Position numbers and translations under genes: made by a program
Shown here: one piece after another, positions 2,285 to 14,278 of the stretch
Position numbering within the stretch: the stretch's first letter is position 1
Layout: every line of letters begins with the position of its first letter
Virus record (IMG/VR): IMGVR_UViG_3300020442_001103
Location: 1 to 23,768 of that record
DNA from: a virus
DNA length: 23,768 bases
Direction: 5' to 3' (one strand)
The notes under the pieces: generated by a model
What the model saw: only the letters and a program-made list of their open reading frames with translations
Told to the model about the DNA's origin: nothing
Databases searched by the model: none

Positions 2285-2884
2285 ATGAACTTATTTTATC
2301 TTGACAAAGACCTAGACAAATGTGCCGAGTATCATGTTGATAAGCACGTCAACAAGATGATACTTGAGGCCGCCCAGTTGTTGTGTACTGCCATTTGGGT
2401 AGACCGACTGCTGGGTTTCATACCACGAGCTCTTGAAAAAGACGAAGCTGCGGTTCTCAATGAGTACAAAAAACTTGAGAAGCCTCTGAAACCAGAAGAG
2501 CGTAAACTTACACCTTATCTCGGCATGATGTACAACCATCCCTGCACGATATGGACTCGATCATCATTAGATAATTACGAGTGGACGTGGTGCTATGCTC
2601 ACGCACTCGCAGAGGAATTTAGATATCGCTACGGCAAAGAACACAAGTCCTTCTGGCAGGTCATCAACAAACTACCTGACCCAGTCAACATTGAACGAGT
2701 GGGGTTTACCACATTTGGACTTGCGATGCCTGACATACTCAAAAACTATGATGATCCAATACAGTCTTACCGTGACTATTATCATCTTGACAAGGCTACT
2801 TTCGCCAGTTGGTCTCACCGACCAACTCCCCCTTGGTGGGATGAGTCTCTTGCTGACTACGAACAGAGGATCACAGCGAAGTGA
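2285..2884 (+). CDS. conserved phage protein of unknown function (YLD...HVDKHVNKM family)
   Basis: The 199-residue protein starts [17 protein letters not shown] and has a His/Asp/Lys-rich segment ([15 protein letters not shown], residues 17-31). From memory, this N-terminus recurs in uncharacterised proteins of marine phages. Invariant-looking residues are His17, Asp19, Lys20, His21, Lys24 and Glu28, which would suit a metal or phosphate site, but no function is established. The ATG at 2285 is chosen because it matches the family N-terminus. An upstream TTG at 2261 would lie inside the promoter and is rejected. The 3' end overlaps the GTG of the isocitrate lyase gene (GTGA junction), so the two are co-expressed from P1. 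Confidence 0.8.
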
Positions 2885-4083
2885 AAAAACGAAATTATAC
2901 CCGTGAAGATGTAAGAAAACTTCAGGGAACTAAGTACATAGAGTTTACTATTGCTAGAGAAATGGCAAACAAAATGCGTATGCTTCTAGCAGAAAATCCG
3001 TATATACATACGTTTGGAGCGTATAATGGACAGCAGGCTGTGCAACACGTTAAAGCAGGTCTTAAAGCAATATATTGCTCAGGATGGCAAGTTGCCGCTT
3101 CAGCTAACTCAGCTAATGAAGTTTATCCTGATCAATCTCTTTATCCTGTTGACAGTGTGCCTACCGTTGTACGAAATATCAACAATGCATTCAGAAGGCA
3201 AGATCAAATCCAATATGCCGATACGGGAGAAGGGTTTCCCTTCGCACCTATTATAGCAGATGCTGAGGCAGGATTTGGAGGAGTACTAAACAGTTATGAA
3301 TTGGCTAGAAACCTCATCGAAGCTGGGGCAGCTGGTGTCCATTTTGAGGACCAGCTTGCGTCCGCCAAAAAATGCGGTCACCTTGGAGGAAAAGTCCTTA
3401 TACCTCTTAGTGACGCTATCCGCAATCTTAACGCCGCTCGTCTTGCTGCTGACGTTGCTGGGGTTGATACTCTGGTCGTCGCTCGGACTGATGCCGAGTC
3501 AGCCAGACTCCTCTCTAGCGACTACGACCAAGCAGACTACAAGTGGATGTCCGGAGATCGTACTGCTGACGGATTTTGGCAGATCGAAGGCGGACTTGAA
3601 ATGGGATGTGAACGTGGGGCTGCATACGCAGAATACGCAGATCTCGTGTGGTGCGAAACAAGCAAGCCTTGTCTCAAAGAGGCTCGACGGTTTGCTGACG
3701 CAGTAAAAGCATCCTGCCCTGATACAATGTTAGCATACAACTGCTCTCCCTCTTTCAACTGGAGACAGTCTATTCCAGGAGACCAAGAGTTAGAAGACTT
3801 TCAGTATGAACTCGGAAAGCTGGGCTTTAAGTTTCAGTTTATTACATTGGCAGGATTTCATGCTACAAACTATGGAGTATTTAACTTTGCTCGTCAGTAT
3901 AAAGATCGAGGAATGTTTGCATACTCTCAGCTACAAGAAGCAGAGTTTGCAGCAGAGCAATTTGGGTACACATCAACACGACACCAGCAGGAAGTAGGTG
4001 TTGGATACTTTGACACAATTACAACAGCCCTCGGCAGTAGTACGGCGGCTATGGCAGATTCTACGGAGGCAGACCAGTTTTGA
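2881..4083 (+). CDS. aceA: isocitrate lyase
   Basis: The 400-residue protein is a full isocitrate lyase, which cleaves isocitrate to succinate and glyoxylate, the first step of the glyoxylate shunt. The catalytic KKCGH motif is intact at 163-167 (Cys165). [10 protein letters not shown] (67-76), [13 protein letters not shown] (82-94), [10 protein letters not shown] (125-134, with Mg-binding Asp127), WCETS and NCSPSFNW all align with the E. coli enzyme as remembered. The C-terminus (DSTEADQF) closely resembles E. coli GSTEESQF, so the 3' end is complete. It is about 30 residues shorter at the N-terminus than E. coli AceA. The GTG start overlaps the upstream stop, and its own stop overlaps the TTG of the DUF3310 gene, so it is embedded in a phage operon. 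No malate synthase is present, so the host would have to supply it. Confidence 0.96.
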
Positions 4084-4373: not shown

Positions 4374-4593
4374 AGGTAGTAGATCACGAGTAGAAAACAC
4401 ACGACAATTTTACGAAAACTGGGAGAAAATCTTTGGTACGAAGAGTAAAGAAGAAAGATCACGAGAATTTATCGGAAACGAACATACAGAAAGTAATTTC
4501 TCTTTTGAATGGAAAGCAACCAATTTCCAAGAAGGAAGCATGCAGTATGCTGAATATAGCATACAATACCACGCGCCTACAGCGGATCATTGA
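4366..4593 (+). CDS. small hypothetical phage protein
   Basis: A 75-residue frame starting at GTG 4366, with GGAG about 10 bases upstream and overlapping the DUF3310 stop (GTGAGTAA). The first ~24 residues ([18 protein letters not shown], then EKIFG) resemble a short N-terminal motif of small uncharacterised phage proteins. The rest has no recognisable feature and overlaps, in another frame, the first 161 bases of the better supported helix-turn-helix gene. The N-terminal part may therefore be the conserved portion and the C-terminal part free to drift. Function unknown. Confidence 0.5.
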   Translation: MSKGSRSRVENTRQFYENWEKIFGTKSKEERSREFIGNEHTESNFSFEWKATNFQEGSMQYAEYSIQYHAPTADH

Positions 4594-5128
4594 TGATTAC
4601 CAAGATAAAATCGAGTATAGAGAACTACGTAAAAAACAAAATCGCGGAAGAGGAGCATCAAATGAAGAAATTCGTGAAGCAGTTGAACGATACCTTTCCG
4701 GAGAATCCATCGCAGAAATCGCAAGCGGACTCTACAGAAGCTCCGGCTTCATTAGATCTATCATTGAGCGAGTCGGAGTACCGAGGGTTGAAAGAGAAAG
4801 TGGCATCGCTGTGCTCCCTGATTCATGCATTGCGGAGTCATTCTCCCCCGGAGAAGTCGTCTGGTCAGCCGTCTACCAAAAACCAGCCAGAGTCGACTAC
4901 GAGCTTTCCGTCGATTACCAGGCTGAAAGAGAAGGATTCATAGACGTAAATTATGAACGCAAGTATGGAAGTAAATGCTATGCGATATATGTTATGGAAG
5001 AGGTTAGAGACGATACAGAAAAATGGGCTAACGTGGAAACAGGTGGCTACGCTGCTTACTCTCTCGCGTATGATCTTGGGAAACTATCACACCTTGAAAA
5101 GTACGGAGTCGACTTATCACGTATCTAA
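4433..5128 (+). CDS. helix-turn-helix DNA-binding protein
   Basis: The 231-residue protein has two likely helix-turn-helix units. One is at about 29-53 (QPISKKEACSMLNIAYNTTR) and one at about 82-114 (YLSGESIAEIASGLYRSS). A basic linker (RELRKKQNRGRG) lies between them. The C-terminal half, with GEVVWSAVYQKPARVDYE and a final GGYAAYSLAYDLGKLSHL segment, is familiar from memory in cyanophage and other marine phage regulators of unknown target. The TTG at 4433 is preferred because GGGAG lies 7 bases upstream; this start is inside the preceding ORF in another frame. The gene ends just before promoter P2. It may be a transcription regulator, but that rests on the fold only. Confidence 0.78.
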   Translation: MVRRVKKKDHENLSETNIQKVISLLNGKQPISKKEACSMLNIAYNTTRLQRIIDDYQDKIEYRELRKKQNRGRGASNEEIREAVERYLSGESIAEIASGLYRSSGFIRSIIERVGVPRVERESGIAVLPDSCIAESFSPGEVVWSAVYQKPARVDYELSVDYQAEREGFIDVNYERKYGSKCYAIYVMEEVRDDTEKWANVETGGYAAYSLAYDLGKLSHLEKYGVDLSRI

Positions 5129-5137
5129 AAATACTTC

Positions 5138-5166
5138 TTGACTTTCATCGCTCATACAGGTATAAT
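5138..5166 (+). promoter_or_regulatory. sigma70-like promoter P2
   Basis: TTGACT at 5138-5143 and TATAAT at 5161-5166, 17 bases apart. TTC precedes the -35 box and GG precedes the -10 box. Predicted transcription start is near 5173, leaving a ~20-base leader with GAGGAAA before the ATG at 5193. Confidence 0.85.
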
Positions 5167-5192
5167 ACATAGTATTGAAACTGAGGAAACCA

Positions 5193-5639
5193 ATGGGCGA
5201 CCGATTTTATTTATCACAACTACAAGCTACCGGATCTTGTCCGGGAGCACCCACAACTAACAACAGAAGGAAACGTAAAATGGCGTGGACAGACGAGAAA
5301 AAAGCAGAGGTTATTGCTGCATATGAAGCGCAAAACCCAACTCCAGAAAACAGCATGGAGATCGTCGCAGAGATTGCAGAAGAGTTCGAAGAGTCACCAA
5401 ACGGTGTTCGAATGGTTCTGACCAAAGCAGGTGTGTATGTCAAAAAAGCACCGGCAACAAAAGCCGCATCTAGTGGCGGTTCTACAGGCGGTGGCCGAGT
5501 ATCTAAGGCCGCAGCTATCGAAGCACTCACAGCAGCATTGACTGATGCAGGTCAAGATGTTGACGAAGAGATCGTTAGCAAGTTGACTGGCAAAGCAGCA
5601 ATGTACTTTGCAGGTGTGATCGCAGCAGTAAACTCTTAA
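5193..5639 (+). CDS. DNA-binding-like phage protein with WTDEK module
   Basis: The 148-residue protein has a basic N-terminal leader (MGDRFYLSQLQATGSCPG, then NNRRKRK). A Myb/HTH-like module beginning AWTDEKKAEV follows at about residues 31-82, then a Ser/Gly-rich linker (SSGGSTGGG) and a C-terminal domain ending SKLTGKAAMYFAGVI. The ATG at 5193 is chosen because GAGGAAA precedes it, it lies ~20 bases after the predicted P2 start, and the leader resembles related phage proteins from memory. An in-frame ATG at 5280 with AAGGAAA upstream is a second possible start, giving a 119-residue form. The module resembles repeats in the 8091-8810 gene, suggesting two members of one DNA-binding family. 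Exact role unknown. Confidence 0.78.
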   Translation: MGDRFYLSQLQATGSCPGAPTTNNRRKRKMAWTDEKKAEVIAAYEAQNPTPENSMEIVAEIAEEFEESPNGVRMVLTKAGVYVKKAPATKAASSGGSTGGGRVSKAAAIEALTAALTDAGQDVDEEIVSKLTGKAAMYFAGVIAAVNS

Positions 5640-5646
5640 TCAAAAA

Positions 5647-5701
5647 GCTCCTAAGAAAGTCGGGACGACAGAAGAATCTGCCAACCCGCTTCACTAGGAG
5701 C
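5647..5701 (+). promoter_or_regulatory. mRNA hairpin sequestering the Shine-Dalgarno of the downstream gene
   Basis: A long imperfect hairpin fills the gap between two genes. GCTCCTA (5647-5653) pairs with TAGGAGC (5695-5701). Inside it, GAA (5655-5657) pairs with TTC (5690-5692), CGGG (5661-5664) with CCCG (5685-5688), and CAGA (5669-5672) with TCTG (5677-5680) around an AGAA loop. The basal 3' strand contains AGGAG, the ribosome site of the GTG at 5706. The fold would hide that site. There is no T-run, so it is not an intrinsic terminator. It does not match a riboswitch class I recognise; a translational operator or thermosensor are possibilities. Confidence 0.6.
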
Positions 5702-5705
5702 ATTT

Positions 5706-5972
5706 GTGAAAAAAGAAGAACTAGCACGGCTCGTCGATGAGTACGGTGATGCTGTAATCACTTATCGCAGTGAAAACAGTAATAAGTTGAAATACAATGT
5801 GTGTACGTTGGACTTCAGCACGCCTTACATTCAGCAAAAGAAAAACAGAGCAAAAGAATCTGACCAGACTCTTTTGCTTTTTTGTTGGGACACCGACTCC
5901 TTTCGTCTATTAAAACCTCAGAACGTAACGAGTGTAGTACCTCTTGCCTCTGTTCTCAAGAACGGAGACTAG
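5706..5972 (+). CDS. conserved phage protein of unknown function
   Basis: The 88-residue protein (KKEELARLVDEYGDAVITY at the start, VCTLDFSTPYIQ in the middle, FCWDTDSFRLLKP and VVPLASVLKNG at the end) resembles from memory small proteins of cyanophages and related marine phages with no known function. It looks like a compact beta-rich domain. The GTG start at 5706 has AGGAG 5 bases upstream, but that site is base-paired in the hairpin at 5647-5701, so its translation may be controlled. The PC4-like gene starts one base after its stop. Confidence 0.72.
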   Translation: MKKEELARLVDEYGDAVITYRSENSNKLKYNVCTLDFSTPYIQQKKNRAKESDQTLLLFCWDTDSFRLLKPQNVTSVVPLASVLKNGD

Positions 5973-8090: not shown

Positions 8091-8810
8091 ATGGCACTTC
8101 CTAAGTGGACAGATGAGCGTACTGAAGCGCTCACTAACTTTGTGGGTTCTGAGAGCCCCGTTTCTCAAGCTACTGTTGCAGAAGCAGCAGACCAGCTTGA
8201 AACTTCTACTCGTTCTATCTCTAGCAAACTGCGAAAGATGGGCTACGATGTAGAACTCGCTTCTGCGGCTGGCGGACGTTCGTTCAGCGAGACTCAAGAA
8301 GCTACTCTTCGTGCATTCGTTACTGATAACTCAGGCGCATACACATATGCTCAGATCGCTGAGCACTTCGAAGGTGGAACTTTTTCACCTAAGTCAATCC
8401 AAGGCAAGATCTTGTCAATGGAGTTGACTGACCACGTTGCTCCTGCTCCTAAGGTAGAGAGCGTACGTACTTACACAGAAGCTGAAGAAGCTACTTTCAT
8501 CTCTATGGTGAACGACGGTGCTTTCGTTGAAGCAATCGCTGAAGCTCTTGGCCGTTCTGTAAACAGTGTTCGTGGTAAGGCTCTCAGCCTTCTTCGTTCA
8601 GGCGACATCCAGGCGATTCCTCGTCAGGAAAACACTAAGGGCTCTTCTAACGTAGACCCTCTTGACGGTGTTGACGTTGCTTCTATGACTGTTGAAGCTA
8701 TTGCCGAGTCTATTGGCAAAACTGCTCGTGGCGTTAAGACTATGCTTACTCGCCGTGGCCTCACTGCTGCTGACTACGACGGCGCTTCTAAAGCAGCTAA
8801 GTCACAGTAA
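8091..8810 (+). CDS. multi-repeat HTH/Myb-like DNA-binding protein, probably abundant
   Basis: The 239-residue protein appears to be built of four related units. Three begin with an aromatic-T/S-acid motif: KWTDERTEAL (5-14), RSFSETQEAT (63-72) and RTYTEAEEAT (126-135). The fourth is degenerate (MTVEAIAESIGKTARGVK, 199-216). Each unit is followed by a recognition-helix-like S-x-x-S-[VI]-x-x-K pattern, as in RSVNSVRGKAL and FSPKSIQGKIL. The codons are strongly biased to GCT, CGT, CTT and AAG, unlike the ligase genes upstream, which suggests high expression. GGAG lies about 7 bases before ATG 8091, and a terminator follows. It shares its module with the 5193-5639 gene. A nucleoid-type or regulatory role is inference. 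Confidence 0.75.
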   Translation: MALPKWTDERTEALTNFVGSESPVSQATVAEAADQLETSTRSISSKLRKMGYDVELASAAGGRSFSETQEATLRAFVTDNSGAYTYAQIAEHFEGGTFSPKSIQGKILSMELTDHVAPAPKVESVRTYTEAEEATFISMVNDGAFVEAIAEALGRSVNSVRGKALSLLRSGDIQAIPRQENTKGSSNVDPLDGVDVASMTVEAIAESIGKTARGVKTMLTRRGLTAADYDGASKAAKSQ

Positions 8811-8812
8811 TA

Positions 8813-8855
8813 TACACTTTTGTGTAGGTGGCTGGGTCTTCGTGCCCAGCTTTTT
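8813..8855 (+). terminator. intrinsic terminator with a preceding small hairpin
   Basis: GCTGGG (8831-8836) pairs with CCCAGC (8845-8850) around an 8-base loop and is followed directly by TTTTT (8851-8855), a standard rho-independent terminator. Just upstream, TACAC (8813-8817) and GTGTA (8822-8826) form a second, weaker hairpin with a TTTT loop. This is the only clear terminator seen in the window and closes the block ending with the repeat protein. The helicase TTG starts 20 bases later, so some read-through or an unseen promoter must serve it. Confidence 0.85.
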
Positions 8856-8874
8856 CATGTTCGGGGGAACTTAA

Positions 8875-10224
8875 TTGAATATTTCCAGTGCTTTGATTAA
8901 GCAGTGTATTGCTACGGCAGACTTTGAGACGTGGAGTTATCTGCGTAAAGAGTACCTGCCTGTAGAATACCATACTCTGTATAATCAAATTGATAAACAC
9001 TGTGAAAACTTTCATGAGTTCCCTTCGTTCGACGATCTCAAGCTCAGCATTCGTCACGCACCTACTAGAGACAAAGTCTTCGCTATAGAAGCTGTCGATG
9101 TAGATGTTGATGCCGTTGCTTTGCTTGAGTACTTAAAGAATGAATACACACAAAAAGAAATCCTTAACTCTCTTGATAACTATATTGACAACTCAGTAGT
9201 ATTTTCGTCTGCTGAGGAATCAGTGCAGGAACTACATCAAATTGTTTTGGATATTGAGGACAAAGTTGATCTTGAAGTTCCTCAAGAAAGTATGCAACGT
9301 ATTGAGTTGTTTGAACCAGAAGAAGAGATCAGTAAGTATATTGGTCTTGGTCTCAACGCAGAGTACGATCATGAAATCAAGTTCTCCCCCCGAGATTTGG
9401 TTTTGGTCGGTGGACGACGAGGCTCTGGTAAATCACTTACGTGTGCAAACATTGCAAACAACGTATTTCAGTCTGGCCGTTCAGCTATCTATTTCACGAT
9501 CGAAATGGATAGTAGATCAATACTGCAACGGTGTTGTTCTATCGCTACTGGCGTGCCCTACTCTCGACTACGAACGCAGAACCTATCTGTGACAGAGTGG
9601 GAGAAAGTGGCTGGCTGGTGGGCGAGCCGCTTCCAGCAAGGTCAGGACAGGTTAAAAGAATACAGAGAAAAACGAGATTTTCAAGAGTTTCATCGTACAC
9701 TCACCACACAGCATGAGCTTCTCCCGACTCAGCAGTTGGATGTAGTGTACGATCCAGGTCTTACTCTCGCAAAGATACGGGCTGAGCTGGATAAAAAAGT
9801 CAGCAAATTGGATGCCGGTGTTATCATTGTAGACTATATCAACCAAGTCAAAAGATCCAACCTACCCTCACGAGGAGGGCAGTACGATTGGACGGAACAG
9901 ATTGAAGTGTCCAAAGCGTTGAAAGCTATGGCACAGGAGTATGAATGCACAGTATTCTCTCCTTACCAAACCGATGCAACCGGCGAAGCACGCTTCGCAA
10001 AAGGCATTCTTGATGCCGCCGATGCAGCCTATGCACTCGAGACATGGGATCAAGAAGACGAATGCATTACTTTCAACTGTGTAAAAATGAGAGCCGCCAG
10101 TATGAAATCTTTCAGTTCTGTTATGGATTGGGAGTCTCTAAAGATGGGGCCCGAAACAGCTCTTACTCCCAAGGAGCGAGAAGCTAGTTCACACAAAACT
10201 GATGAAGATATTGACGACCTCTGA
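8875..10224 (+). CDS. DnaB-like replicative DNA helicase
   Basis: The 449-residue protein has an all-helical N-terminal region (1-165) and a RecA-type ATPase core. Walker A is GGRRGSGKS (179-187), a FTIEMD segment follows at 207-212, Walker B is VIIVDYINQ (316-324), and SPYQ (362-365) stands where DnaB has a Gln sensor. KMRAAS (404-409) may supply the arginine finger. It would unwind DNA 5'-3' as a hexamer ahead of the polymerase, with the separate primase encoded at 11179. The start is TTG 8875 with GGGGGAA about 5 bases upstream; the residues after it (NISSALIKQ) fit the family start. Unlike T7, helicase and primase are separate genes. Confidence 0.9.
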   Translation: MNISSALIKQCIATADFETWSYLRKEYLPVEYHTLYNQIDKHCENFHEFPSFDDLKLSIRHAPTRDKVFAIEAVDVDVDAVALLEYLKNEYTQKEILNSLDNYIDNSVVFSSAEESVQELHQIVLDIEDKVDLEVPQESMQRIELFEPEEEISKYIGLGLNAEYDHEIKFSPRDLVLVGGRRGSGKSLTCANIANNVFQSGRSAIYFTIEMDSRSILQRCCSIATGVPYSRLRTQNLSVTEWEKVAGWWASRFQQGQDRLKEYREKRDFQEFHRTLTTQHELLPTQQLDVVYDPGLTLAKIRAELDKKVSKLDAGVIIVDYINQVKRSNLPSRGGQYDWTEQIEVSKALKAMAQEYECTVFSPYQTDATGEARFAKGILDAADAAYALETWDQEDECITFNCVKMRAASMKSFSSVMDWESLKMGPETALTPKEREASSHKTDEDIDDL

Positions 10225-10265: not shown

Positions 10266-10296
10266 ATGTACTTCAATTAGTGGGGATTTTTATTTT

Positions 10297-10590
10297 ATGG
10301 GAATGTTTTATGGATCAATCCGACATACAAGTAGCGGTAGAAAAAAGAAAAGCAGTACTAAGAGCTCTCGACGAACTATCAGAGCAGTTCAATCAAACTC
10401 TCCAAAACCTTATAGACGAGAAACACCTGAGTACAGAAGTGCCGCCGACACAACTGGAGTTGCCCCTCGGAACGACTCGATGCAGTATACAGGACAGTTG
10501 GTTAAGGGGATAGGGACTATGCACAAATCGAATGCAGTACCAATTATTGACGAACAACATATGAAAGACATTGCAAGGATGAGAAGATGA
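10297..10590 (+). CDS. conserved small basic phage protein (RRETPEY / VKGIGTMHKSNAVP)
   Basis: The 97-residue protein has a Lys/Arg/Ser-rich N-terminal half (GRKKKSSTKSSRR). A C-terminal half with RRETPEYRS, QYTGQLVKGIGTMHKSNAVP and IARMRR recurs, from memory, in many phage proteins of unknown function. The ATG at 10297 is preferred for the GGGGA 10 bases upstream; ATG 10303 is an alternative. The stop overlaps the cytochrome c ATG (ATGA). A second open frame (10310-10513, +1 relative) lies inside it and is discussed separately. The product is probably cytoplasmic; a nucleic-acid-binding role is possible from its charge only. Confidence 0.72.
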   Translation: MGMFYGSIRHTSSGRKKKSSTKSSRRTIRAVQSNSPKPYRRETPEYRSAADTTGVAPRNDSMQYTGQLVKGIGTMHKSNAVPIIDEQHMKDIARMRR

Positions 10591-10898
10591 AAAAGATTTT
10601 ACTTACTACAGCATTGCTAGTTGCTGCACCTTCGCTAGAGGCACAAGATCGCTTTGAAGACATTCGAGAAGAGTGGAAAATGTGCGCTACTTGTCATGGT
10701 GCTCAAGGGCAGGGCGGGATTGGCCCAGCCTTGGCAGGCCAGTCTGCTGATGATATTATCAACAAACTAATTCACTACAAGATGGGACATAAAGACGGTC
10801 CTCAAGCTGCTATGATGATTCCTTGGGCTCAAAGCCTTGAGGACGGCCAAATTGGACTCATAGGAGTATTTGTTCAAGAGGGGTTTCCAGCGCAATGA
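10587..10898 (+). CDS. periplasmic c-type cytochrome (class I, c4/c553-like)
   Basis: The 103-residue protein has a Sec signal peptide (MKKILLTTALLVAAPSLEA, cleavage expected near residue 19-20). A single haem-attachment motif CATCH lies at 33-37 and is followed by GIGPALAGQ, as in small c4/c553 cytochromes. Met76 or Met77 in AAMMIPWAQSL is the likely distal ligand. It would carry electrons in the periplasm, for example toward a cytochrome oxidase, and needs the host cytochrome c maturation machinery. The ATG overlaps the preceding stop and its own stop overlaps the next start (ATGA on both sides), so it is an integrated part of the phage operon. Its electron donor and acceptor are unknown. 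Confidence 0.9.
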   Translation: MKKILLTTALLVAAPSLEAQDRFEDIREEWKMCATCHGAQGQGGIGPALAGQSADDIINKLIHYKMGHKDGPQAAMMIPWAQSLEDGQIGLIGVFVQEGFPAQ

Positions 10899-11182
10899 AC
10901 AAGCGACTAACACCTAAAATTGCAGATCTTTTTGATATGCTAGAAAAGGATATGGACATTGGTGACTATGAGCACGCTGATGTTGTACTTGCTAGGCTAT
11001 CAAAATACTTTCACCTCTTTGACGATGAGCACGCCGATTACTATCAGTACGCACAAGATGTGTGCGATGAGATGCTTAACGGAGAAGTAGAAGATGATTA
11101 TTATGACGGTGAAAACTATCTCGACAATTGGGATGGAGATGCTCTTGCGTCTGCTGGCTTTGGTGTGGACGAAGACTATTGA
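10895..11182 (+). CDS. small acidic protein of unknown function
   Basis: The 95-residue protein is helical at its N-terminus (KIADLFDMLEKDMDIGDYEH) and very acidic throughout. It ends in a tail dominated by Asp, Glu, Tyr and Gly (EVEDDYYDGENYLDNW). No family is recognised. Acidic tails of this type can mimic DNA or bind replication proteins, but nothing here proves that. The ATG overlaps the cytochrome stop and the TGA overlaps the primase TTG, so it is translated between cytochrome c and primase. Confidence 0.7.
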   Translation: MNKRLTPKIADLFDMLEKDMDIGDYEHADVVLARLSKYFHLFDDEHADYYQYAQDVCDEMLNGEVEDDYYDGENYLDNWDGDALASAGFGVDEDY

Positions 11183-12012
11183 ACGTAGAAGACCTTCTTA
11201 AACAAAAAGGTATTGATTATATACCCAAAGGAAAAGATTTTGTGGTTAGCTGTCTCAATCCTGAGCACCCTGACCGCAATCCTTCTATGCGTATAGATCA
11301 AGTAACAGGTATATTTAATTGTTTCTCTTGCGAGTATAAAGGCAATCTTTTTACTCACTTTGGAGAAAAAGCAAACAAGATGGAAATCAAGCGTCAGCTC
11401 TTAAAGAAAAAGATTGACGAGGTAAGGGCTGAAAGCGTGGGTTTACAAATGCCAGAGGGATATGCTCCCTATGTTGGAAATTGGCGGGGTATTAGTCCCG
11501 CAACTTATAAAGAATTTGAAGCGTTCATACATTCCGGTAAGGACTTTGTAGGACGTATTTGTTTTCCTATCCGTGACCGATCTGGACGGATAGTCTCATT
11601 TCAATCAAGAACTACAGGAGACCAACAACCGAAGTATCTCAACACTCCACCTGGAGCAAAGATGCCTCTGTTTCCTGTAGTAGAGCCAATACAAGGGCGT
11701 ATAGTTCTTGTAGAAGGTATTTTTGATGTAATGAATCTACACGACAAAGGACTCACTAACGCAGTGTGTTGTTTTGGCGTGAAGAATGTAACTGAAGAGA
11801 AGTTACAAGTTCTCGCCGTCTCAGGAGTAGAGGGTGTGGACATATTTTTAGACAATGATGAAGCCGGTCAAGGACAGGCTGTAAAAGTACGCGAGCTATG
11901 TGAGTCAGTGGGACTCGATACACGCAACATTGCTTTTGGAGACAAAAACATGGATGCGGGTGCATTAGCTGAAACTCAAGTTACAAAACTAAGAGATAAA
12001 TTATATGCCTAA
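11179..12012 (+). CDS. DnaG-type DNA primase
   Basis: The 277-residue protein has a CHC2-type zinc-binding domain (Cys25, His30, Cys48, Cys51 in SCLNPEH and FNCFSC) for template recognition. It is followed by a Toprim catalytic domain with the Glu179 motif LVEGIFDVMNL and the FLDNDEAG motif at 223-230. It would make RNA primers for the family A polymerase encoded next. It lacks a helicase-binding C-terminal domain and is about half the length of bacterial DnaG. The TTG at 11179 shares bases with the upstream TGA (TTGA junction) and is preferred over a start at 11128, which would overlap the acidic gene. Its end overlaps the polymerase ATG by 8 bases. Confidence 0.9.
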   Translation: MNVEDLLKQKGIDYIPKGKDFVVSCLNPEHPDRNPSMRIDQVTGIFNCFSCEYKGNLFTHFGEKANKMEIKRQLLKKKIDEVRAESVGLQMPEGYAPYVGNWRGISPATYKEFEAFIHSGKDFVGRICFPIRDRSGRIVSFQSRTTGDQQPKYLNTPPGAKMPLFPVVEPIQGRIVLVEGIFDVMNLHDKGLTNAVCCFGVKNVTEEKLQVLAVSGVEGVDIFLDNDEAGQGQAVKVRELCESVGLDTRNIAFGDKNMDAGALAETQVTKLRDKLYA

Positions 12013-14278
12013 AGTTGCATTAGTAGAAACTAAGCCTAGTAAAACTAATTTTATGCGTGAGTTCGACGGACTGGAATTTGACCAGTTTCAGTTGTGCTCC
12101 GATCCAAATATCAAAAAAGTACTCAAGCGAGACTGCGACATTGATATGAATCCAGACGACTATGACTGGGTTATTCTTGTCGGCAGTGATGCTATGAAGT
12201 ACTACACCAAACTCAGTTCTGTTACTGAGTATTCTGGCAAGCGAGTTGAAGAAAAGTTCTTGCCTATTATCAACCCTGCTATGCTTGCCTTTAAACCAGA
12301 AGCCAAAAAAGTCTGGGAGTCAGGTAAAGAAAGCATTCTCGAGTATATCAAAGGCGAAAAAGAAGATGTAGTAATTGATGAAAGCATCGCTTTTGGTATT
12401 CAAGACACGGAGAAAGCAAATGAATTTATTCAGGCCGCCATCAGAGAAGAATGTGGATATGTTGCGCTCGATTCCGAAACAACTGGCCTCTACCCTCGTG
12501 ATGGTTATATGCTTGGTATTAGCCTTTGTTATAATGGTAAGTGTGGGGCTTATATCGACACTGATTGTTTTGATGAAGAAACTGAAAGGCTTCTTCAAGA
12601 GCTTTTTGACAAGAAAACAGTAATATTTCACAACGCCAAGTTTGATATGGCGTTTTTCGAGTATCACTTTCATTTTAGATTCCCTCAGTTTGAAGACACA
12701 ATGCTTCTTCACTATTTGATTGATGAGAACCCTGGAACTCATGGTCTAAAGCAGTTGACTATGAAGTTTACTCCTTATGGTGATTACGAGAAACCAATGT
12801 ACGATTGGATTGATCGTTATCGCAAAGAGCACGGCATTCTAAAAGATCAGTTTAGCTGGGGTGATATTCCTTTTGATGTAATGAAAACCTATGCAGGGAT
12901 GGATGCTCTGTGTACGTTTCTCATCTATGAAAAATTTGTAAAAATTAAACAAAACCCAAAGCTGTTATGGGTATATGACAATATTCTTATTCCAGGCACT
13001 CGATTCCTTATTGATACTCAAGATAATGGCGTACCATTTGATCGTAAAAGATTGTATGTCGGTCAGGATGCCATGCAGACTGATATTGATAATGCTATCT
13101 CTGCCTTGTATGAAAATGACAAAATACGGAGGTTTGAGGAAATAAATGGTAAGCCTTTTAATCCTAATTCTACTATGCAGCTTCGGAGCCTCTTGTTTGA
13201 TTATCTTGGCCTTACGCCAACTGGGAAGAAAACTGGCACGGGCGCAGACTCTACTGATGCGGAAGTGCTCAAGGAGCTCTCGCTTCAATCAGATGTACCA
13301 AAACGGATCTTGGATATACGACAAAAGTCAAAGATCAAGAATACTTACCTTGATAAAATCATACCACAACTGGACAGAGATTCTCGCTTGCGGACTGGGT
13401 TTAATCTTCACGGTACTACTAGTGGTCGTCTCTCTTCTTCTGGCAAGCTCAACATGCAGCAACTGCCTCGAGATAATCCTACAGTAAAAGGCTGTATCAA
13501 AGCGGCGCCAGGACACAAAATTGTTGCTATGGACTTGACCACAGCAGAAGTATATGTTGCGGCAGTTTTGGCAAAAGACACAGCGCTTATGGACGTGTTC
13601 CGTAGCGGAGGCAACTTTCACAGTACGATTGCTCACAAAGTATTTCGATTGCCTTGCGAAGTAGAGGAAGTAGCAGACCTATATCCTGATAAGCGTCAGG
13701 CCGCAAAAGCAGTAACCTTTGGTATCATGTATGGTGCCGGGCCTGCAAAGATCAGTGAGCAAGTAACAAAAGACAGTGGTAAGTATTTTTCTAAATCGGA
13801 AGCTCAAGAAGTTATTAGTGACTACTTCAAAGCCTTCCATAAACTAAAGGCGTGGATTGATGACAATCAGAAATTTATTGAACAAAATGGGTTCGTGTAT
13901 TCTTTCTTTGGTAGGAAGCGGAGGCTCCCCAACGTTGAATCCACCGATGCCGCTATCCGCTCGCATAGCGTTCGGTCTGGTCTTAATTTTTTGGTTCAGT
14001 CTGCTGCTAGTGATGTTAATCTCCTTGGCGCAATAGATATGGGAGAGTATATCAAAGCAAAGAATATGAAGGCGCGTATCTTCGCATTAGTACACGACTC
14101 CATTCTTGCCGAAGTTCCAGAGGACGAAATTGAACATTATAAAGAGAAGTTATTACACTTTGTACAGTTGGATAGAGGACTTTCTATCCCAGGCGCTCCG
14201 ATTGGATGTGACTTTGAAATCATCCATGAAGACTACTCCAACGGTAAATTTTCAAAATTGTATGGTGATTCAGTATAG
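12005..14278 (+). CDS. polA: family A DNA polymerase with 3'-5' exonuclease
   Basis: The 757-residue protein is the phage replicase. The 3'-5' exonuclease motifs are intact: ALDSETTGL (Asp156, Glu158), FHNAKFDMAF (Asp214) and YAGMDA (Asp300). Polymerase motifs are motif A VAMDLTTAEVYVAA (Asp510, Glu515), motif B RQAAKAVTFGIMYG with Phe572 at the E. coli Phe762 position, and motif C LVHDSILAEV (Asp698). In motif A the usual Arg after I-E-L is Tyr517, and motif C has Ser in place of the usual Glu. There is no 5'-3' exonuclease domain; that activity is encoded at 21421. The first ~115 residues weakly resemble a uracil-DNA-glycosylase fold. The ATG at 12005 overlaps the primase. Confidence 0.96.
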   Translation: MPKVALVETKPSKTNFMREFDGLEFDQFQLCSDPNIKKVLKRDCDIDMNPDDYDWVILVGSDAMKYYTKLSSVTEYSGKRVEEKFLPIINPAMLAFKPEAKKVWESGKESILEYIKGEKEDVVIDESIAFGIQDTEKANEFIQAAIREECGYVALDSETTGLYPRDGYMLGISLCYNGKCGAYIDTDCFDEETERLLQELFDKKTVIFHNAKFDMAFFEYHFHFRFPQFEDTMLLHYLIDENPGTHGLKQLTMKFTPYGDYEKPMYDWIDRYRKEHGILKDQFSWGDIPFDVMKTYAGMDALCTFLIYEKFVKIKQNPKLLWVYDNILIPGTRFLIDTQDNGVPFDRKRLYVGQDAMQTDIDNAISALYENDKIRRFEEINGKPFNPNSTMQLRSLLFDYLGLTPTGKKTGTGADSTDAEVLKELSLQSDVPKRILDIRQKSKIKNTYLDKIIPQLDRDSRLRTGFNLHGTTSGRLSSSGKLNMQQLPRDNPTVKGCIKAAPGHKIVAMDLTTAEVYVAAVLAKDTALMDVFRSGGNFHSTIAHKVFRLPCEVEEVADLYPDKRQAAKAVTFGIMYGAGPAKISEQVTKDSGKYFSKSEAQEVISDYFKAFHKLKAWIDDNQKFIEQNGFVYSFFGRKRRLPNVESTDAAIRSHSVRSGLNFLVQSAASDVNLLGAIDMGEYIKAKNMKARIFALVHDSILAEVPEDEIEHYKEKLLHFVQLDRGLSIPGAPIGCDFEIIHEDYSNGKFSKLYGDSV

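Follow-up and report, generated by a model that had tools for sequence, protein, structure and literature searches.

That phages control energy metabolism is well established for cyanobacterial photosynthesis. During cyanophage infection of Prochlorococcus, PTOX and cytochrome c oxidase have been proposed as electron outlets (PMC5082946). A survey of nitrogen-cycle phages reported seeing neither cytochrome nor quinone carriers in the phages that it covered (PMC8115048); the cbb3 oxidase subunit I genes reported from the viral fraction in a virome study (PMC3474794) encode a different protein from the phage cytochrome c considered here. The glyoxylate shunt is represented by a phage aceBA operon in an environmental T4-like genome (PMC5332604); that phage carries isocitrate lyase (ICL), as does the one described here, but together with malate synthase, and the main text makes no mention of a cytochrome or of an alternative oxidase (AOX). 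A haem-related gene, that for 5-aminolevulinate synthase, has been described among the tetrapyrrole auxiliary metabolic genes (AMGs) of phages, and the passages concerned (PMC11480375) deal with the precursor enzyme and do not describe a phage cytochrome, whereas in the present case it is a cytochrome that is encoded. No description of a phage-encoded cytochrome c carrier was found in the open-access full-text papers searched.

The stretch of DNA analysed here (the window) is an IMG/VR virus record of 23,768 bases, a fragment (23.8 kb) that encodes a predicted exported cytochrome of 103 amino acids. We read this gene, with a probability of about 0.6, as an AMG for a soluble periplasmic electron carrier, acting within a phage respiration module together with AOX and ICL.

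A cytochrome gene inserted among T5-like replication genes

The window carries genes for NAD ligase A and B, a D5-like protein, DnaB helicase, primase, family A polymerase, a helicase, SbcD, SbcC and flap endonuclease, an order (ligA-ligB-D5-helicase-primase-polA-helicase-SbcD-SbcC-FEN) that is collinear with Vibrio phage pVp-1 (Demerecviridae); judged by this gene order, the phage is T5-like (Demerecviridae). All window features given below with coordinates lie on the plus strand. The DnaB-like replicative helicase (8875-10224; T5 D6-like; phrog_19 E 7e-47, PF03796) is followed by a small conserved phage protein of no assigned function (10294-10590; phrog_27048, PHROG E 8e-20), the cytochrome (10587-10898), a small acidic ORF of no assigned function (10895-11182), which is 69-97% identical in T5-like relatives and has no Pfam or PHROG match, a DnaG-like primase (11179-12012; phrog_47 E 3e-41, with Toprim and CHC2 zinc finger) and a family A DNA polymerase (12005-14278) about 44% identical to Demerecviridae polymerases.

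The cytochrome ORF is present exactly as described in an earlier note on this DNA, which had also proposed that ATGA overlaps on both sides tie it to phage genes and to the primase. The tie to phage genes holds, with ATGA at 10587-10590 joining the cytochrome start to the end of the upstream gene and ATGA at 10895-10898 joining its stop to the start of the small acidic ORF. The primase, however, is one gene away, and it is this small ORF that overlaps the primase start (TTG 11179, ATTGA). The phrog_27048 gene also lies immediately 5' of the cytochrome in L048, L060, L071, L033, L034 and L051 (L-numbers are locus labels and G-numbers genome labels). In pVp-1 and L049 the helicase adjoins the primase without the cytochrome and its small neighbours, which argues that in the window these genes were inserted into a T5 backbone.

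A chance ORF or misassembled host DNA is ruled out, because independent contigs share the synteny and the gene is under purifying selection (see below). That this is a true phage gene among replication genes, as had been suggested, is supported by its occurrence in the same slot in close T5-like relatives and by a single phage-only clade. With T5-like replication genes on its flanks and a bacterial clade adjoining its own, it is a metabolic gene that the phage lineage has taken from a cellular source, and a probable AMG.

Export signal, haem site and predicted fold

The protein encoded at 10587-10898 passes the gathering score of Pfam Cytochrom_C (PF00034; 25.6 bits vs. 21.3) and falls slightly short of that of Cytochrome_CBB3 (PF13442; 25.8 bits vs. 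27); no PHROG match was found for it. Its N-terminal part (10587-10685) comprises a predicted signal peptide, MKKILLTTALLVAAPSLEAQ (about residues 1-20), and a lead-in to the haem site. The signal was judged by inspection and hydropathy: MKK is followed by the hydrophobic stretch ILLTTALLVAAP and a cleavage region of small residues, the hydrophobic 12-mer having a mean Kyte-Doolittle value of 2.2. The CATCH haem-attachment motif occupies codons 33-37 (10683-10697). Met77 (10815-10817), which sits in an MM pair at residues 76-77 in the C-terminal half and matches the axial Met of c552 in the alignment, is the predicted axial haem ligand, so that signal peptide, CATCH and Met ligand are all in place, as first noticed. 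The C-terminus reads GVFVQEGFP.

Searched against solved structures, the family profile matched 8yts (E 8e-15), c552 (E 2e-10) and c554 (E 3e-10). The AlphaFold model, made without haem, is of moderate confidence (mean pLDDT 74.6) and had 8yts as its top Foldseek match (E 6e-4). The nearest folds are those of the small electron carriers c546/556, c553, c554 and c552. VIA-align gave Z of 8-10 for c553, c554 and c552, and Z of 9.5-10.3 over 75-80 residues for the proteins that the profile had matched, values that are modest on their own for a helical protein. Taken together, the sequence profile, the ligands and the Z values support a firm assignment to the predicted class I cytochromes c: the protein has one CXXCH near the mature N-terminus, an axial Met, a cytochrome c fold and, by hydropathy, an export signal, and is thus predicted to be an exported monohaem carrier.

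The comparison with known small cytochromes that had been proposed at the outset therefore places the model with c553, c554 and c552. Cytochrome c4, which has two haem domains, is ruled out by the single CXXCH in 103 residues, and the cbb3 subunit CcoP, which has a membrane anchor and two haem domains, by the one CXXCH and a signal of the cleavable type only.

Conservation, selection and allele exchange

A first search found relatives at 34 viral loci, and a profile-guided search at least 174 IMG/VR stretches encoding relatives, of which the best 80 of 174 were kept; the best E value was 2e-53. The contigs concerned are redundant and for the most part incomplete. Cultured-phage records yielded no relative at E 0.1, in a search that may leave out records close to the window, and by these searches the family is so far known from viral sequences only. 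For a large set of relatives (part of L052-L111), the T4-like label derives from weak 20-26% SbcC/helicase matches and from a reading of the neighbours; in this T4-like-looking group (L054 9777-10312 and similar loci) a glutaredoxin gene lies directly 5' of the cytochrome and overlaps it.

C33, C36, H37 and M77 are invariant in all 48 distinct phage relatives, and the signal peptide is intact in 45 of them. Relatives without the CXXCH cysteines and histidine, which the earlier note had named as the observation to look for against its proposal, did not occur (48/48), and these ligands, with the class I fold predicted by profile and structure, argue strongly for the exported c-type cytochrome that it had proposed. 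If the export signal or the haem site had been misread and the protein had a non-haem role, an AlphaFold model of only moderate quality (mean pLDDT 74.6) would be less surprising; with CXXCH and Met invariant throughout, and a profile match to solved haem proteins at E 8e-15, we hold this to be very improbable. P101 and I89 are also invariant and G93 is present in 47 of the 48, the conservation of the tail being partly a sampling effect because one search pattern contained the C-terminal GVFVQEG; tail variants in the wider set include GVYISQGYP, GVYIQQGMP and DFVEANFP.

Substitution estimates indicate that the mature cytochrome is under purifying selection. For the mature part, dN/dS is about 0.09 between the window and L004 (dN 0.071, dS 0.81) and 0.10 between the window and L045 (dN 0.117, dS 1.12), and when every usable pair of full-length genes is counted, the median is 0.28.

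In L004, L044, L009 and L047 the flanks are about 92-97% identical to those of the window, the cytochrome about 67-74% only (in L004, flanking genes about 97% and cytochrome allele about 74%), and in these four cytochromes the signal peptide is followed by an additional LQEWTVFPTFASN segment. The low identity of the cytochrome against the high identity of its flanks, together with the extra segment, points to allele exchange at the locus. Frequent exchange of this kind, as seen in L004, and a position that varies among phages could also be taken as marks of a host gene recently captured and still in transit, without a selected function. That reading is contradicted by the deep, many-member phage clade, the low dN/dS and the ligands intact in 48/48, and we give it almost no credence.

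Association with alternative oxidase and isocitrate lyase

The window does contain an oxidase bypassing cytochrome c, as had been remarked: the gene at 1098-1664 encodes an AOX (ubiquinol oxidase; PF01786, 218 bits, E 1.7e-64) in which all four di-iron motifs were found (LET, NERKHL, FEEEA and RRDEQHH). It is followed by genes for a peroxiredoxin (1665-2246; PF08534 E 2e-21; phrog_2281 E 9e-58) and an ICL of the glyoxylate shunt (2881-4083). By the NCBI equivalog cut-offs that it passes (NF011645, 622 bits vs. 562; TIGR01346) and its KKCGH signature, the latter is judged to be a true ICL. Malate synthase was not noticed in the ORF list of the window, so the glyoxylate formed by this ICL would need host enzymes or feed glycine/purines. 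All three genes precede the cytochrome by about 6.5-9.5 kb.

AOX was found in 17 and ICL in 14 of the 50 cytochrome-bearing records, which are mostly fragments, so that these counts are lower bounds. In L045-L047, ICL and AOX lie between PhoH and helicase and the cytochrome at the helicase-primase position. The T5-like L049 and L050 have ICL first, then a small lipoprotein-like ORF, the cytochrome and AOX, and the cytochrome stop abuts or overlaps the AOX start. The cytochrome gene is mobile, being at helicase-primase in the window and at ICL-AOX in other phages. None of 18 sampled Pseudomonadales AOX loci has a small cytochrome within about 1.5 kb; the pairing therefore appears to be a phage arrangement, and a bacterial origin for it was rejected on this ground. 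The module is not obligate, since the complete phage C48C1 (L168, OQ984149.1 20000-50000; Kyanoviridae, 156 kb) has AOX, ICL and peroxiredoxin without such a cytochrome. In C48C1 the AOX and ICL are annotated as hypothetical proteins, and an IscU-like gene and the two-helix protein described below are also there; a search for papers mentioning this phage found none.

A second phage cytochrome c, with a lipobox, is encoded in L143-L145 (7546-7989), L156 (7558-7989) and L157 (1086-1502). In L143-L145, ICL is followed by a two-helix membrane protein, then by a small ORF, this second-type cytochrome and finally AOX; in L156 the cytochrome adjoins AOX, and in L157 it is close by. Its stop overlaps the AOX start in L143-L145 and L156, and from this overlap the gene is judged to be translationally coupled to AOX. 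That two separately derived cytochromes occupy the same position beside AOX is the best indication of a functional association, as opposed to one simply carried along by descent. This recurrent travel with AOX and ICL speaks to the function of the cytochrome, which had earlier been called not obvious, and suggests that the phages take over host respiration during infection.

The two-helix membrane protein (about 111 amino acids) has an NPLRHIP...MFYLSVMW...HL motif with one invariant His in the second helix. It was seen in L144 (6890-7225) and in L057, L074, L077, L112, L123, L130, L138, L156, L157 and L168, and in many phages it adjoins the cytochrome, AOX or ICL. No PHROG match was found for it, and it is possibly part of the module. 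An IscU-like Fe-S scaffold gene lies near the AOX/ICL/two-helix cluster in L130 (4442-4825), L057, L074, L112, L123 and L168. Should the cytochrome be more than an additional copy of the host carrier and work with phage-specific partners (AOX, the two-helix protein or others), it would belong to a dedicated phage-run electron route reshaping the respiration of heterotrophic marine bacteria, which we consider unlikely.

Haem maturation, ancestry and probable host

No member of the cytochrome assembly family Cytochrom_C_asm (PF01578) turned up in 23 phage records, of which many are fragments; phage-supplied assembly genes were set aside on this result, which, given the fragments, is not proof. 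CcmE is present in 6/6 of the Pseudomonadales genomes nearest by AOX or cytochrome, and haem-copper oxidase subunit I in 6/6 host-type genomes. With CcmE in the host-type genomes and no assembly gene in the phage records, the phage must rely on host maturation, in agreement with the dependence on a host Ccm system put forward before.

The first committed enzyme of haem-precursor synthesis is 5-aminolevulinate synthase. It is encoded in 6 of the 50 cytochrome-bearing records (L054, L063-L067; TIGR01821, 566 bits). In L063, 5-aminolevulinate synthase (4558-5817) is accompanied by serine hydroxymethyltransferase (8696-9838), the latter about 0.15 kb upstream of the cytochrome, and the two enzymes could possibly form a glycine-to-haem supply line for such a cytochrome.

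In a tree of 70 proteins, 50 rows of which are of the phage family, this family is set apart from the other rows by a branch with support 99/99. The stand-alone monohaem cytochromes of Pseudomonadales (L187-L198, L206) form the adjoining clades, and Pseudomonadales cytochromes are also the closest cellular matches of the profile (E down to 4e-24). Phage L099, which keeps the bacterial CxGxCYxxW-type N-terminal region, has a basal position in the phage family. The second phage cytochrome (L143-L145, L156, L157) groups with the bacterial L206 of genome G434 (support 100/99), and the separate groupings of the two cytochromes indicate capture by phages at least twice.

Among 391 genomes searched, the AOX of G434 and G451 are closest to the window AOX (70% and 69%), which makes marine Pseudomonadales-like bacteria plausible hosts. 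When named bacterial genomes were scanned with patterns that favoured the phage C-terminus, only four matches were obtained, all weak and of dihaem type. The close relatives among host cytochromes that had been suggested as a guide to the host are in Pseudomonadales, and the host is probably a marine gammaproteobacterium of or near that order.

A proposed role in host respiration

Our reading of the protein as a periplasmic electron carrier builds on the gene itself, its export signal, haem ligands and fold, purifying selection, ancestry in a phage clade and linkage to AOX and ICL, each of which is supported directly. The apocytochrome would be exported by Sec, and haem would be attached by the host Ccm system. 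The mature cytochrome would then join the host pool and carry electrons from the bc1 complex to the haem-copper oxidase, a direction, donor and acceptor that we infer. AOX oxidises ubiquinol directly and does not need cytochrome c, so the cytochrome is not expected to be an AOX substrate; instead, the two would act on two exits from the quinol pool. ICL would convert isocitrate to succinate and glyoxylate, and the succinate would yield ubiquinol through succinate dehydrogenase. AOX would burn surplus ubiquinol without proton pumping or membrane potential, and the carbon flow that forms precursors would go on, while the extra cytochrome would keep the ATP-making, energy-conserving bc1-to-oxidase branch open and the peroxiredoxin would handle peroxide. 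The benefit to the phage is likewise one that we infer.

Several points count against this model. AOX is not visible in 33 of the 50 cytochrome-bearing records, long T4-like-looking fragments among them, so the cytochrome also serves phages without visible AOX. Conversely, C48C1 has the other module genes and lacks the cytochrome, and AOX makes no use of cytochrome c. Host cytochrome c, moreover, is usually stable and abundant, and a supply of it by a lytic phage might perhaps be unneeded. The same records bear on whether the protein is a decoy that poisons the host cytochrome pool, accepting electrons and delivering them poorly, so that respiration is throttled and electrons leave via the phage AOX. 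Such a decoy would have its alternative outlet in AOX, and its C-terminal segment is unlike host cytochromes; since many family members occur in records without AOX and the conserved surface and ligands resemble those of a normal carrier, we find this improbable.

The partner could also be other than the bc1-oxidase branch, with the cytochrome serving as donor to a periplasmic peroxidase or as acceptor from a host dehydrogenase, in detoxification or a special oxidation. A peroxiredoxin does occur in the same AMG cluster, the best matches by fold and by sequence comprise not just oxidase donors but also proteins that serve sulfur, sulfite, hydrogenase and nitrite enzymes, and the fold thus leaves the partner unfixed, and the C-terminus (G93 and P101 near-invariant) is conserved beyond the needs of haem binding. 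However, no peroxidase or dehydrogenase gene was recognised beside the cytochrome in the loci read, where the recurrent neighbours are AOX and ICL, and we regard this partner assignment as doubtful. If, as we favour, the protein feeds the bc1-to-oxidase branch, phages of respiring heterotrophs would also supply mobile electron carriers, and the gene set of cytochrome, AOX and ICL would offer a concrete handle on whether respiration limits phage production. Such phages are predicted to infect only hosts that have both Ccm and a cytochrome c branch, a constraint that would be useful in host prediction.

Comparison with known systems

The phage cytochrome resembles c554 of Vibrio parahaemolyticus (2zzs), c552 of Marinobacter (P. 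nautica; 1cno) and c546/556 of Thioalkalivibrio (8yts) in having one CXXCH, a Met in the C-terminal half and a common mature fold of about 80 residues. The phage members differ in a conserved DRF..IR lead-in and a G(V)FVQEGFP-type tail, both absent from the bacterial rows aligned here. Unlike the phage family, the Pseudomonadales monohaem cytochromes (L187-L198, L206) have a longer N-terminus and do not lie beside AOX.

Phage AMGs for electron transport are already known; what is new, within the literature searched, is that the carrier is a respiratory cytochrome c and that it is linked to AOX and ICL. Among phage AMGs, the cyanophage genes for PTOX and plastocyanin likewise combine a quinol oxidase with a mobile electron carrier, and by analogy the cytochrome-AOX set may be viewed as their counterpart in heterotrophs. 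The cyanophage pair acts in the photosynthetic membrane and uses a copper protein, whereas the set described here would act in the respiratory chain, uses a haem protein and is paired with ICL.
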